From: Ignavibacterium sp.
GTDB lineage: Bacteria > Zixibacteria > MSB-5A5 > GN15 > PGXB01
Direction: 5' to 3'
DNA length: 49,884 nt
Assembly: GCA_020724775.1 (NCBI GenBank)
Contig: DYGG01000023.1
Coordinates: forward strand, 1-49,884
This document shows, piece by piece, positions 16,919-20,568 of this stretch. The notes below the pieces were generated by a model, which was not told where the DNA came from, made no database searches, and saw only the letters and a program-made list of their open reading frames with translations. The position numbers and the translations under genes were made by a program. Each line of letters begins with the position of its first letter. The stretch's first letter is position 1.

Positions 16919-17386
16919 GTGAGCGCGGAGATAAATTCGATAATTAGGGTCGAGCAGATTAGAGAATTAATCATTTTCGTCAGGGGCCAAAAAGTAATTC
17001 TGGATAGTCTGCTTGCCCATATGTACGGAGTGGAAACCAAATCACTCTTAAGAGCTGTCCGACGAAATGTGGAGAGATTTCCTGACGACTTCATGTTCCA
17101 GCTGACTGAAGTTGAGATGGAGGATTTGAGGTGCCATTATGGTACCTCAAAGACCCGTGGGGGACGTCGGTATCTCCCCTATGCCTTTACAGAACAAGGG
17201 GTTGCAATGCTCTCCAGCGTTCTTCGGAGTTCGCGGGCAATCAAAGTAAATATTGAAATTATGCGGGCTTTCGTGAAACTGCGGCAAATTCTTCTGTCGC
17301 AGGCCGATTTGGGGAGAAGAATTGACCGGCTGGAGAAAAAATACGATGCCCAATTCCGGGTAGTGGGTCAGTTTGAAATTTCTTGA
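16919..17386 (+). pseudogene. ORF6N-domain protein gene, 5' part, interrupted by an IS1-family transposon
   Basis: GTG start at 16919 with GGAGG six bases upstream. The product has the ORF6N domain ([40 protein letters not shown]...[10 protein letters not shown]...[22 protein letters not shown]), common in phage and mobile-element regulators and thought to bind DNA. After residue 147 (AQFR) the frame enters transposon sequence and ends seven codons later. The missing C-terminus lies at 20485-20568 in the same frame. Removing the element and one copy of the target duplication gives ...DAQFRGIFDAIRELM..., 171 residues in total, which is a normal length and ending for this family. The truncated protein keeps the whole ORF6N domain and might still fold. 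Confidence 0.92.
17359..17379 (+). repeat. left terminal inverted repeat of the transposon
   Basis: 21 bases beginning GGTAGTGGGTCAG, exact reverse complement of 20464-20484. Confidence 0.95.
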
Positions 17387-17474
17387 GTTTGAAGGTGATA
17401 TATATTGGCAAGAAAAATGCTATTGACTTTTTGGCTTGTTGACGATAGTCTTGATTATAGATAAAAAATTGTGA

Positions 17475-17503
17475 TTGACACCTGAACTATTGTGCAGTAT
17501 TTT
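17475..17503 (+). promoter_or_regulatory. promoter of the toxin-antitoxin operon
   Basis: TTGACA (17475-17480), a 17-base spacer and TATTTT (17498-17503). An ideal ribosome-binding site, AAGGAGGTGA, follows at 17533-17542. Confidence 0.6.
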
Positions 17504-17548
17504 CGTTTAAGAGATATGGACCACGAGTCACTAAGGAGGTGAATTATA

Positions 17549-18127
17549 ATGGCATCAATTCTCATGAATGAAGAAGCAGAAAAAGATCAGAAACTAAAAG
17601 AATTGGCAGTGCTAATTTGCGCGCTATGTCGAGATGACAAACCTTTTGGCAAGGTCAAACTCAATAAGCTATTGTTTTATGTCGATTTTGTGGCTTATAG
17701 AGATTTGGGACATCCAATTACAGGTCAGGAATATCAGAAATTGGAAAATGGGCCAGCCCCAAGAAGACTTTTACCAGTGATTCCATCCTTGTCTATCCCT
17801 CCGGGTTCAGATCCAGATATTGTTGTCCAGAATATTAGTTATTATGGATTGACTCAACAACGTCCAATTGCGCTGCGAAATCCAGATACCTCAAAATTCA
17901 CATTTGAAGAAATCAAATTGGTTGAATTTGTGATCAATCACTTTTGGGGAAAGAACGCAACAGAAATTAGTAATGAATCTCATAAATTTATAGGCTGGCA
18001 ACTTGCTGGATTAAGAGAAATTATACCCTATTCAATTGCGCTTGTTTCTAATAGAGGGCCAACTCAATCTGAACGGGAGTATGGACGGCGACTTGAAGGT
18101 TTGGCTTCTGAGTGCATTTCGAGATAG
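17549..18127 (+). CDS. Panacea-domain (DUF4065) antitoxin
   Basis: A 192-residue protein with a perfect ribosome-binding site. Residues 30-75 carry the Panacea hallmark: FGKVKLNKLLFYVDFVAYRDLGHPITGQEYQKLENGPAPRRL. The middle reads LVEFVINHFWGKNATEISNESHKFIGWQLAG, also typical (the S-H motif preceding a Trp). Panacea is a promiscuous antitoxin domain that neutralises many unrelated toxins and is related to SocA. The small gene six bases downstream is the likely toxin. As the first gene inside the transposon it probably stabilises the element or protects it from loss. The gene lacks any signal peptide and acts in the cytoplasm. Confidence 0.85.
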   Translation: MASILMNEEAEKDQKLKELAVLICALCRDDKPFGKVKLNKLLFYVDFVAYRDLGHPITGQEYQKLENGPAPRRLLPVIPSLSIPPGSDPDIVVQNISYYGLTQQRPIALRNPDTSKFTFEEIKLVEFVINHFWGKNATEISNESHKFIGWQLAGLREIIPYSIALVSNRGPTQSEREYGRRLEGLASECISR

Positions 18128-18133
18128 AGACAC

Positions 18134-18391
18134 ATGAGAACAATCATTGAAGAGTCTCGTTTTACGCAAGAACTGTCATTAATCGAATCTGATGCAAAAA
18201 GAGCGGACGAATTCATTGATGGTGCGAAATATATATTATCACGTAATCCAGAATTTGGAAATTGTATTGGGGATAACTCAAATGTCTGGACCCTTGCTTT
18301 AGTCGAAATTCACGATCACCCCCCTTTAGTTTTATATTATACTTTTGATGACTCTCGCGTGTGGTTTTTATCAATTATTATTAGCCAATAG
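18134..18391 (+). CDS. putative toxin partner of the Panacea antitoxin (RelE/ParE-like size)
   Basis: An 85-residue protein starting six bases after the antitoxin stop. The reading frame MRTIIEESRFTQELSLIES...RADEFIDGAKYILSRNPEFG...VWTLALVEIHDHPPLVLYYTFDDSRVWFLSI has the helix-helix-beta order and length of RelE/ParE superfamily toxins, with the usual late strands containing LYYTFD and VWFLSI. That family call is tentative because key residues differ among members. Its 3' end overlaps the 3' end of the transposase gene on the other strand by 11 bases. Toxin status rests on the position after a Panacea gene. Confidence 0.7.
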   Translation: MRTIIEESRFTQELSLIESDAKRADEFIDGAKYILSRNPEFGNCIGDNSNVWTLALVEIHDHPPLVLYYTFDDSRVWFLSIIISQ

Positions 18392-19241
18392 CCTTAGAGT
18401 TGTCTTTAATCTCTTCAGATTCCAATAGAGTCACGATATCTCCAACATTCCATAGTTTGTGTGTTATCCCCGCAGCCATAGCCGGAGTTATCCTTAAAGT
18501 CTGGTGTATCCGGCAGAAATTGTAATACATAAAATGTAGAGCAACCGCATACTCAAGATTCTGAATTTTCTTGGAAAAGGCATTAGTCAACCGGGTGAAT
18601 CGGCGCATGTTCATGCGCATGGTAAGATTCTGACGCTCAATGAGACTTGTAGATACATTTTCCTTTTTGGGTTTACCAATCAGAGATTTTCTTCGAGCCC
18701 CAATACAATTGGGGGGGCTATACCTTCCTTCCTGTCCTTTTTCTCGTCCATATAGTTTAACCAGCATCGCATAATCAATTTTGCAACCAAAGGCCTCGTC
18801 AACGGCCTCAAGATAGGCGCTATGGCCGTCTGTGGTCAATTGAATTTTATTGGATAAGCGCTCGGCCAGATCATTCATAAATATCTTCGCATGTTCAGCG
18901 TTGCGCAGTCCAACATACCAAGAGACAATCAATTTAGATTCGGGGTCAAGAGCTGTCCAAGTCCAAACATCACCATAGCCAAATTGCCCGTACTTATCTT
19001 TAGGAACATTTTTCTGTTTGGCATAACAGTAAGACCAGATTTCATCGCATTGAATCTGTTTACAATTCAGATTGCGTAAGGTCTTGTCTTGATATTCAGC
19101 ACAAATTGACCCAACTTCGGCCAGCAATTTGACAACCGTATTCTTGGCAATACCGGTCATACGAACGGTCGACCGAATGGAGTTTCCTTCTATTAAGGCA
19201 CCTATAATGCGAATCCGCTGTTCTTTGCTTAATTTATTCAT
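18381..19241 (-). CDS. IS1-family transposase, single reading frame
   Basis: A 286-residue DDE transposase. An N-terminal helix-turn-helix (SIRSTVRMTGIAKNTVVKLLAEVG) is followed by the catalytic core: Asp66 in QCDEIWSYCYAKQ, Asp137 in TTDGHSAYLEAV and Glu201 in LIERQNLTMRMNMRRFTRL, ending with HFMYYNFCRIHQTL. This order is characteristic of the frameshift-free IS1 subgroup. No zinc finger is present at the N-terminus. The core is complete, so the element may be active. The gene is convergent with the toxin gene, 3' ends overlapping. The promoter lies so close to the start codon that the transcript may be leaderless. Confidence 0.92.
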   Translation of the reverse strand: MNKLSKEQRIRIIGALIEGNSIRSTVRMTGIAKNTVVKLLAEVGSICAEYQDKTLRNLNCKQIQCDEIWSYCYAKQKNVPKDKYGQFGYGDVWTWTALDPESKLIVSWYVGLRNAEHAKIFMNDLAERLSNKIQLTTDGHSAYLEAVDEAFGCKIDYAMLVKLYGREKGQEGRYSPPNCIGARRKSLIGKPKKENVSTSLIERQNLTMRMNMRRFTRLTNAFSKKIQNLEYAVALHFMYYNFCRIHQTLRITPAMAAGITHKLWNVGDIVTLLESEEIKDNSKAIG

Positions 19242-19249
19242 CCTGACCT

Positions 19250-19278
19250 AATATACAAGACCGCTTTCGCATTGTCAA
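19250..19278 (-). promoter_or_regulatory. transposase promoter, very close to the start codon
   Basis: On the minus strand TTGACA (19278-19273), 17-base spacer, TATATT (19255-19250). Only eight bases separate the -10 from the ATG at 19241, so transcription would start at or next to the start codon. Confidence 0.7.
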
Positions 19279-19420
19279 GTGAAATGTTATATTACTTTAA
19301 ATTTTTTTAAAACGTTTCCGCTTTTCTAATAGTTACACATAACTTATTGTATAACAATGTATTGTGTCTGCGCTAAAACAGTCAAGGAATCACTTTGATT
19401 GTTTCTAATATCGAAAACCC

Positions 19421-19449
19421 TTGACACGAATTTAAATAAAATATTAATT
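19421..19449 (+). promoter_or_regulatory. candidate promoter for the structured RNA and the downstream cargo gene
   Basis: TTGACA at 19421-19426 followed after 16-17 bases by ATTAAT/TTAATT (about 19443-19449). The structured stretch begins within 20 bases downstream. Confidence 0.45.
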
Positions 19450-19454
19450 GGGGT

Positions 19455-19625
19455 TATGAACGGAGGAGGAGCCAAGAGCCAGTTAAACTTATCGGCTCCT
19501 CCTCAGAAAGGATACTCTTCATGGATAGAAGAGTCTTTGGCCAGACACCTATAGTGGGCCGACGGGCTGCGTGATCTGGCAAATGGCTAACGGGCCGAGG
19601 GACGCTTCGGCCTGCATGGCCATTA
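19455..19625 (+). ncRNA. highly structured noncoding segment inside the transposon
   Basis: Three strong hairpins follow one another. P1: GAGGAGGAGCC (19463-19473) with GGCTCCTCCTC (19494-19504), 11 bp perfect. P2: AAAG-(GAT)-ACTCTTC (19507-19520) with GAAGAGTCTTT (19528-19538). P4: GGCCGAGG (19593-19600) with CTTCGGCC (19605-19612). Between P2 and P4 the sequence is rich in GGCC/GGGC blocks that can form further pairings. It is far more G+C-rich than the rest of the element and has no open frame. It could be a free RNA or the long 5' leader of the gene at 19669. No known RNA family is recognised. Confidence 0.55.
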
Positions 19626-19668
19626 TTTTAATAATAAAATCTATCTTTTGGAGAAAGGCAAGTTAAAA

Positions 19669-20169
19669 ATGGCAGGAAAAGAAGATTATAGTAAAGCTAT
19701 TGAAGCTTTGAAACTTAGGCGAAACGCTTTAGATATTGCAATAGCGGAACTTGAAGCATTGAATACCGACAATGTCAATCAAGACCATGTTCCAGCACTT
19801 TTAGAGGCCAACAACCTTAAAGAACCAACGGCTTTGTACACCACGGAGATAAAACCTGATGAATTTTGGGGACTTAGTATTACAGAGGCAGCCAAAAAAT
19901 ATCTAAACATGGTGAAGCGTCCGCGAAACGCCAAGGATATTGCGCGCGCACTTAAAGCAGGTGGGAATTTATCTACTTCCCCTCATTTTCTGACAATTGT
20001 TCGTTCTGCACTTAAGCGAGATTCTGACTTTGAGAAAGTTAAGCGTGAATGGGGATTAGCTGAATGGTATCCATCTCGACCAAAACGACTGGAACCAATT
20101 GAAAAGTCAAAAGGGAAAAAGAAATCGAAACCACAACAAAAACCTAAAGAACCACAATCAGAAAATTAG
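19669..20169 (+). CDS. small protein with N-terminal coiled coil and winged-helix-like (HARE-HTH-like) domain
   Basis: ATG at 19669 preceded by GGAGAAAGG; the frame opens earlier at a TTG that is unlikely to be used. 166 residues. Residues 1-35 form a short coiled coil (EDYSKAIEALKLRRNALDIAIAELEAL). Residues 70-140 read FWGLSITEAAKKYLNMVKRPRNAKDIARALKAGG...FLTIVRSALKRDSDFEKVKREWGLAEWYP, which has the spacing of HARE-HTH/winged-helix DNA-binding domains. The tail is Lys/Pro-rich. Proteins of this plan occur widely as uncharacterised genes. As transposon cargo it may bind the element's DNA or RNA or regulate the cargo, which is speculative. It converges with the next gene, overlapping by four bases. 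Confidence 0.7.
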   Translation: MAGKEDYSKAIEALKLRRNALDIAIAELEALNTDNVNQDHVPALLEANNLKEPTALYTTEIKPDEFWGLSITEAAKKYLNMVKRPRNAKDIARALKAGGNLSTSPHFLTIVRSALKRDSDFEKVKREWGLAEWYPSRPKRLEPIEKSKGKKKSKPQQKPKEPQSEN

Positions 20170-20420
20170 TTTTTCTTCTTCCAGCGGGCTCTTGCAGCTT
20201 TTTTAGCCAATTCCGATCTTCTTTTTTTACCAACACCTTCCCACCTGGCTTTGCCGCCTTTTAAACCCCCAAGGCGGCCCAATTCGACCGCGGCGGGATT
20301 CTTGTTCGGATCGGCAGGTTTTGGTTCTTCTGGCGGCTCCGACGTAGTTGCCTCATTAACTACAGTTGAGGCCAATTCGTTCAGGTCCAGTCTTTTCTTT
20401 TTGCGTGACCGCTTTTGCAT
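20166..20420 (-). CDS. small basic protein with GGLKGGKARW motif
   Basis: An 84-residue protein. Both termini are Lys/Arg-rich, and the centre has NPAAVELGRLGGLKGGKARWEGVGKKRRSELAKKAARARW. The GGLKGGKAR motif with a following (S)ELAKKAARARW is common in small proteins of many bacteria and their mobile elements and resembles the repeated basic motifs of histone-H1-like or stress proteins. It is likely nucleic-acid binding. It lies between the winged-helix-like gene (opposite strand) and the right end of the transposon. The ribosome-binding site is weak. Confidence 0.65.
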   Translation of the reverse strand: MQKRSRKKKRLDLNELASTVVNEATTSEPPEEPKPADPNKNPAAVELGRLGGLKGGKARWEGVGKKRRSELAKKAARARWKKKN

Positions 20421-20463
20421 GTCTCAAGATAGCATTCCTTATATTATCTGTCAAGCCCCTAAT

Positions 20464-20484
20464 ATTTCAAACTGACCCACTACC
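20464..20484 (-). repeat. right terminal inverted repeat of the transposon
   Basis: Exact reverse complement of 17359-17379; followed by the second CAATTCCG copy. Confidence 0.95.
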
Positions 20485-20568
20485 CAATTCCGGGGCATAT
20501 TTGACGCTATCAGAGAATTGATGACACCCCCCAAGACAGAGAAGCGGTCGATAGGATTTCGCGATTAA
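20485..20568 (+). pseudogene. ORF6N-domain protein gene, 3' fragment
   Basis: In the frame of the 5' part, this encodes QFRGIFDAIRELMTPPKTEK... and stops at TAA 20566-20568. The FDAIRELM segment is the usual end of ORF6N-domain proteins. It has no start codon of its own and is cut off by the transposon. The first eight bases are the target-site duplication. Confidence 0.92.

Follow-up and report, generated by a model that had tools for sequence, protein, structure and literature searches.

What is the strongly folded RNA segment that lies between a transposase gene and a small cargo gene in the window, the 49,884-nucleotide contig DYGG01000023.1 of Ignavibacterium sp. (assembly GCA_020724775.1), and which of its neighbours does it serve? 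The segment sits in an IS1-like transposon, and the cargo gene, starting at 19669, encodes a protein with a coiled coil and a winged helix. A sequence-only reading of the window had taken the segment for either a regulatory 5' leader of the cargo gene or a free RNA. The comparison with related elements favours the leader, which was found directly 5' of the same kind of gene, on the same strand, in 10 of 10 homologues counting the window. Our preferred reading, to which we give about an even chance, is that the RNA is a structured 5' leader of the cargo mRNA working as a translation-sensing attenuator.

The leader of the window

The landmarks of the leader and its gene are as follows.
19421-19426, + strand: TTGACA hexamer, possible -35 (exact in the sequence, rejected by the promoter scan)
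19463-19504, + strand: hairpin 1, 11-bp perfect stem (arms 19463-19473/19494-19504) with a 20-nt loop (fold, shuffle test)
19505-19511, + strand: purine box AGAAAGG, Shine-Dalgarno-like (sequence)
19514-19534, + strand: hairpin 2, 7-bp stem (19514-19520/19528-19534) with the start codon of the upstream open reading frame (uORF) at its loop (fold)
19521-19574, + strand: the uORF, 17 codons, MDRRVFGQTPIVGRRAA and a stop codon (homologues keep such a frame)
19540-19580, + strand: hairpin 3, 6-bp-plus-bulged stem (19540-19545/19575-19580; fold)
19582-19624, + strand: hairpin 4, two-tier, 8 + 10 bp (fold)
19669-20169, + strand: cargo gene, encoding a long coiled-coil helix at the N terminus and a winged-helix (HARE-like) domain (AlphaFold2, Foldseek, weak Pfam match)

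The minimum free energy of positions 19450-19640 was -80 kcal/mol, compared with -56.0 ± 4.5 on average for shuffled copies (z = -5.34; none of 200 shuffles equalled it), and the full leader (19462-19668) gave z = -5.67. The structured RNA first noticed in the letters is thus real, 19463-19624 folding far better than shuffles (z = -5.3), and its 11-bp perfect stem is exact. The score of hairpin 1, taken in the 60 nt 5' of the purine box, was reached by none of 200 shuffles. The stop codon of the uORF falls just 5' of the 3' arm of hairpin 3.

Two of the initial claims held in part. That no open frame crosses the segment is true of long frames but misses the 17-codon frame with its Shine-Dalgarno-like box. 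Of the TTGACA-type promoter, the hexamer stands, while the promoter scan found no acceptable -10 at 16-18 nt past it; from the leader to the gene, the + strand offers a single promoter-like sequence, which scored 9/12 and overlaps the gene start. The impression that the RNA belongs to no known family was borne out: the Rfam 15 covariance models gave no gathering-score match in the window or in the nine homologous leaders, and ARAGORN found no tRNA, tmRNA or cloverleaf with a T-arm in the window leader. A known Rfam RNA, a tmRNA, a tRNA and a chance fold were accordingly all rejected (Rfam, ARAGORN, shuffles). The window leader also contains no tandem repeats.

Recurrence of the leader with the winged-helix gene

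Searched for as DNA in 194 genomes and in plasmids, the leader returned zero matches; its primary sequence is not conserved. Winged-helix protein-pattern scans of genome contigs and viral contigs were nearly empty as well, and homologues were therefore sought through transposase and genome searches. The transposase search yielded about 160 non-redundant elements from the phylum of the window, other phyla and viral contigs, to which a winged-helix alignment search added more; several other phyla gave sets too small to contribute. A protein search led to one genome (G080) whose element keeps the gene order of the window.

Ten elements bear the leader: the window, L044, L069, L385, L396, L391, L103, L435, L436 and L437, the nine relatives coming from distant bacteria and viral contigs. 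In all ten, a leader of 172-223 nt lies between the opposite-strand transposase gene and the coiled-coil/winged-helix gene, directly 5' of the latter and on its strand, at 87-224 nt from the transposase start. It is present in 10 of the 11 readable gaps with a co-oriented winged-helix gene. No leader was recognised in the 138 elements without a winged-helix gene, as judged by overall fold strength and one pattern scan; this check used no covariance model, so that absence there is not proven, and two or more of these elements, L112 and L344 among them, hold coiled-coil/winged-helix-like genes missed by the search. The presence of the leader goes with that of the winged-helix gene rather than with the transposase: in most related elements there is a transposase but neither such a gene nor a recognised leader.

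A common order recurs in the ten leaders, consisting of hairpin 1, a purine-rich Shine-Dalgarno-like box, a short frame and further hairpins, with hardly any conservation of primary sequence; counterparts of hairpin 1 were seen in most of the nine homologues. The arms of hairpin 1 are nearly unrelated between leaders (GAGGAGGAGCC/GGCTCCTCCTC; GCTACGGCCCCGT/ATGGGGCCGTAGC; AACGACGGCCTCGG/CCGAGACCGTCGTT), and the hairpin 5' of the purine box nevertheless reached a combined p = 5e-8 over the ten leaders against dinucleotide shuffles. It was individually strong in 7/10 (0-2 of 200 shuffles equal), and the fold of the leader gave z = -3.1 to -5.7 in 7/10. The purine box lies 0-7 nt 3' of hairpin 1 in nine leaders; in L103 the distance is 14 nt and the box is weak. 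Counterparts of hairpin 2, seen by eye, and terminal hairpins resembling hairpin 4 occur in L044 and L069.

At the sequence level, the box is followed by an ATG in all ten leaders (post hoc shuffle product for ATG placement, p ~7e-6). The frames, each closed by a stop codon, read MDRRVFGQTPIVGRRAA, MRRY, MRV, MSRLAPGKRADG and MGKDRESLIAPKKGVGVGKPAPFYALPRRTVC in the first five leaders and MVRKIPLQAHC, MVRKIPDHAA, MKA, MKG and MRLARPLKGRRGKETP in the other five. Lys or Arg stands at codon 2 or 3 in 10/10, MVRKIP is common to L391 and L103, and in most leaders the stop codon is within a hairpin loop or next to one (by eye).

Covariation of the stems in homologues, proposed at the outset as a check, was positive for the pair L435/L436 and for hairpin 1 across the set. 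L435 and L436 are 68% identical; their 39 consensus pairs show 8 two-sided changes, 3 one-sided and 0 broken, which is supportive and not an independent test, the consensus having been fitted to those two sequences. Their frame keeps its length despite a stop codon change from TAA to TGA. MAFFT could not align most of the leaders, the window and L044 included, and scanning for the pattern of a hairpin followed by a purine box gave many chance matches. A pairing between the purine box and a terminator T-run, seen by eye in some leaders, failed across the set.

The cargo protein

AlphaFold2 predicted a long N-terminal helix followed by a winged helix with pLDDT >90. The Pfam HARE-HTH profile (PF05066) matched at E = 0.012 and 16.4 bits, and the L044 protein at 19.3 bits, both under the gathering score of 25.9. 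The top Foldseek match was chain E of an S. aureus RNA polymerase complex (E = 0.018), closely followed by several entries for the delta subunit of RNA polymerase; Rok, FOX proteins and winged helices of SelB also matched, and no match had E <0.001. The cargo protein thus resembles the delta subunit and HARE-HTH proteins in fold, among its best matches, and in a weak profile match, but differs from them in its N-terminal coiled coil, its sub-cut-off Pfam score and its basic tail, the tail of the delta subunit being acidic. Judging from this predicted fold, the protein may bind nucleic acid. No relative of it was found in the plasmids and phages searched.

A possible attenuation mechanism

The position of the leader and its conserved, translated-looking frame fit an RNA in which a ribosome reads the fold. 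Transcription would start just 5' of hairpin 1. A ribosome would load at the purine box and make a very short peptide of Met and an early Lys or Arg codon, starting at hairpin 2 and stopping in or near the next hairpin. Depending on the presumed signal, a ribosome moving or stalled on the uORF would set the choice of downstream hairpins, and this choice would control the winged-helix gene at the level of transcription or translation. In L044, GCCATGAGGA occurs at the uORF start and again in the last hairpin (by eye), so that either copy could pair with CCTCATG. Transcription attenuation has direct support in L396 only, where a clear intrinsic terminator lies between leader and gene; elsewhere, translational control is equally possible.

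Structured attenuation leaders with a short uORF 5' of the regulated gene are known from MsrDL/msrD, erm and the amino-acid operons, and MRL-type peptides are found in some resistance leaders. The present leaders differ from these in preceding a winged-helix gene on an IS1-like transposon, in having a clear terminator in one homologue only and in lacking an Rfam match. In the msrD leader, stalling of the ribosome keeps a Rho-independent terminator from acting (PMC10314930). Devices of this kind are known; the leader family appears to be new, as do its setting on a transposon and its partner protein, and a literature search found no description of such a leader. If the proposal is correct, transposons would have carried a cis-acting RNA family not described so far into unrelated phyla and viral contigs; the family would be tied to the cargo protein and would offer an experimental handle on the role of small cargo transposons.

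Several observations weigh against the attenuator. L389 has a co-oriented winged-helix gene, of another protein subtype, without a leader. The hairpin test taken alone was non-significant in L385, L103 and L437, and the fold z was weak in L396, L391 and L437. The uORF is as short as 3 and as long as 32 codons, and the statistics on box, ATG and uORF were devised after the sequences had been seen. Finally, the terminator is clear in L396 only and weak in L435, and the leader strands of L385, L436, L437 and the window leader (+) yielded no terminator call.

Alternative explanations

The main rival, possible but tentative, is a free small RNA that partners the winged-helix protein in an arrangement like that of type III toxin-antitoxin systems (promoter, RNA, leaky terminator, protein gene); the protein would bind the RNA, and the pair would form an addiction or regulatory ribonucleoprotein. 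RNA and protein co-occur tightly, the L396 terminator separates the two, and a sister subset with the winged-helix protein has other non-coding RNA genes instead. Winged helices can also bind hairpin RNA, and SelB-SECIS entries are among the weak Foldseek matches. ToxIN, CptIN and TenpIN likewise place an RNA directly 5' of a small protein gene on mobile DNA, but the RNA described here has no tandem repeats, and its partner combines a coiled coil with a winged helix, no ToxN/AbiF-type domain having been found in it by profile, AlphaFold2 or Foldseek. A free RNA would leave the conserved uORF unexplained and fits poorly with the lack of a clear terminator in most leaders. The uORF could alternatively be a toxic or translation-sequestering minigene, its tiny Met-Arg/Lys frames depleting tRNA by peptidyl-tRNA drop-off as the lambda bar minigenes do. 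The very short frames (MKA, MKG, MRV, MRRY), the early Arg or Lys codon, the Shine-Dalgarno-like box and the tRNA genes in some of the same elements would suit this; we consider it unlikely, the frames reaching 12-32 codons in L385, L437, the window and L396 and standing invariably directly 5' of the same gene, and the window element having no tRNA gene.

That the RNA serves the transposon itself, as insulating hairpins or as a regulator of the divergent transposase, is decidedly unlikely: its closeness to the transposase start in all ten elements agrees with such a role, but it was not seen in most transposase-bearing elements and follows the winged-helix gene. A decayed tRNA-like gene or chance hairpins are very improbable. 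Sister elements do have tRNA-like genes in the same gap, but the lack of a tRNA match in the window leader and of an Rfam match in its nine homologues, together with the coexistence of the leader and a downstream tRNA gene in L044 and L385, speak against decay, and the shuffle tests against chance.

tRNA genes in sister elements

In six elements (L041, L042, L043, L051, L060 and L280), the winged-helix gene shares the strand of the transposase, and the gap holds, in place of the leader, one or two tRNA-like genes downstream of the winged-helix gene. Such genes occur in 9/18 elements with a winged-helix gene and in 19/138 without (Fisher p = 9e-4). The following were located in related IS1-like elements.
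L041, 4407-4481, - strand: tRNA gene
L042, 4628-4714, - strand: tRNA gene
L043, 4454-4528, - strand: tRNA gene
L044, 5544-5617, + strand: tRNA gene
L051, 4510-4583, - strand: tRNA gene
L280, 1130-1204, - strand: tRNA gene
L060, L065-L068 and L133: tRNA genes near the transposase start

They lie mostly 80-200 nt 5' of the transposase start, on the same strand, and most also match the Rfam tRNA model. Their anticodons are odd (four-base TCCC, ochre TTA, ACT with A34); GCT ('Ser') or ACT occurs on class-I tRNA bodies, and TGC on a body whose variable arm is long. Reports exist of allo-tRNAs and of irregular tRNA arrays (Mukai 2017, reviewed in PMC7609411). The sister elements likewise carry irregular tRNA genes, whereas the window RNA is not tRNA-like (ARAGORN, Rfam). 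IS1-like elements may be the home of some of the reported irregular tRNAs, which were suspected of a link with transposable elements, and the carried genes may connect to them. That leader RNA, winged-helix protein and sister tRNA genes form one mobile RNA-protein system acting on translation is doubtful; if true, it would be an addiction, defence or translation-sensing module on IS1-like transposons in several bacterial phyla.

In L040, L065 and L380, DUF5343-like genes replace the winged-helix gene beside tRNA-like genes (L065 by a profile match just under the cut-off, L040 and L380 by resemblance). In the transposase/winged-helix gap of L042 (-), the loop of a hairpin, GTTTGCA, is a repeat of the anticodon loop in the adjacent tRNA-like sequence.

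The transposon and its other genes

The RNA segment is enclosed by an intact IS1-like transposon of 3126 bp (17359-20484). It has 20-bp inverted repeats (GGTAGTGGGTCAGTTTGAAA ... TTTCAAACTGACCCACTACC) and is flanked by an 8-bp target-site duplication, CAATTCCG (left copy 17351-17358, right copy 20485-20492); the insertion splits the frame of an ORF6N-domain gene. The A+T-rich surroundings described from the sequence were confirmed, the island being the transposon itself (G+C ~40% inside, ~52% in the flanks). Its remaining genes are listed below.
17549-18127, + strand: Panacea-domain protein (SocA-like antitoxin domain; Pfam PF13274, E = 1.6e-14)
18134-18391, + strand: 85-aa frame, by position alone a candidate toxin partner of the Panacea protein, with no Pfam or NCBIfam match
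18381-19241, - strand: IS1-like transposase (NCBIfam NF033558, E = 4.5e-15, under the curated cut-off)
20166-20420, - strand: basic GGLKGGKARW protein, recurring near the right end of related elements

Among the features of the IS1 family, the inverted repeats and the 8-bp duplication are present, while the transposase scored 56 bits against the NF033558 cut-off of 100, and its Pfam DDE_Tnp_IS1/IS240 matches were likewise under cut-off. Inverted repeats of this type flank 74/101 related loci at the tolerance used. In L005 (G080:C8), a locus of the genome found by the protein search, a Panacea-like gene is grouped with a small partner gene and a same-family winged-helix gene, without transposase or leader. 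The basic protein with the GGLKGGKAR...ARW motif lies near the right end of many related transposons regardless of their other cargo. Across the IS1-like family (L038-L057, L058-L137, L286-L349, L380-L419), conserved ends enclose highly diverse small cargo, including HigB/HigA and Panacea toxin-antitoxin-like pairs, DUF5343-like, NYN-like and other genes, mostly named by eye.
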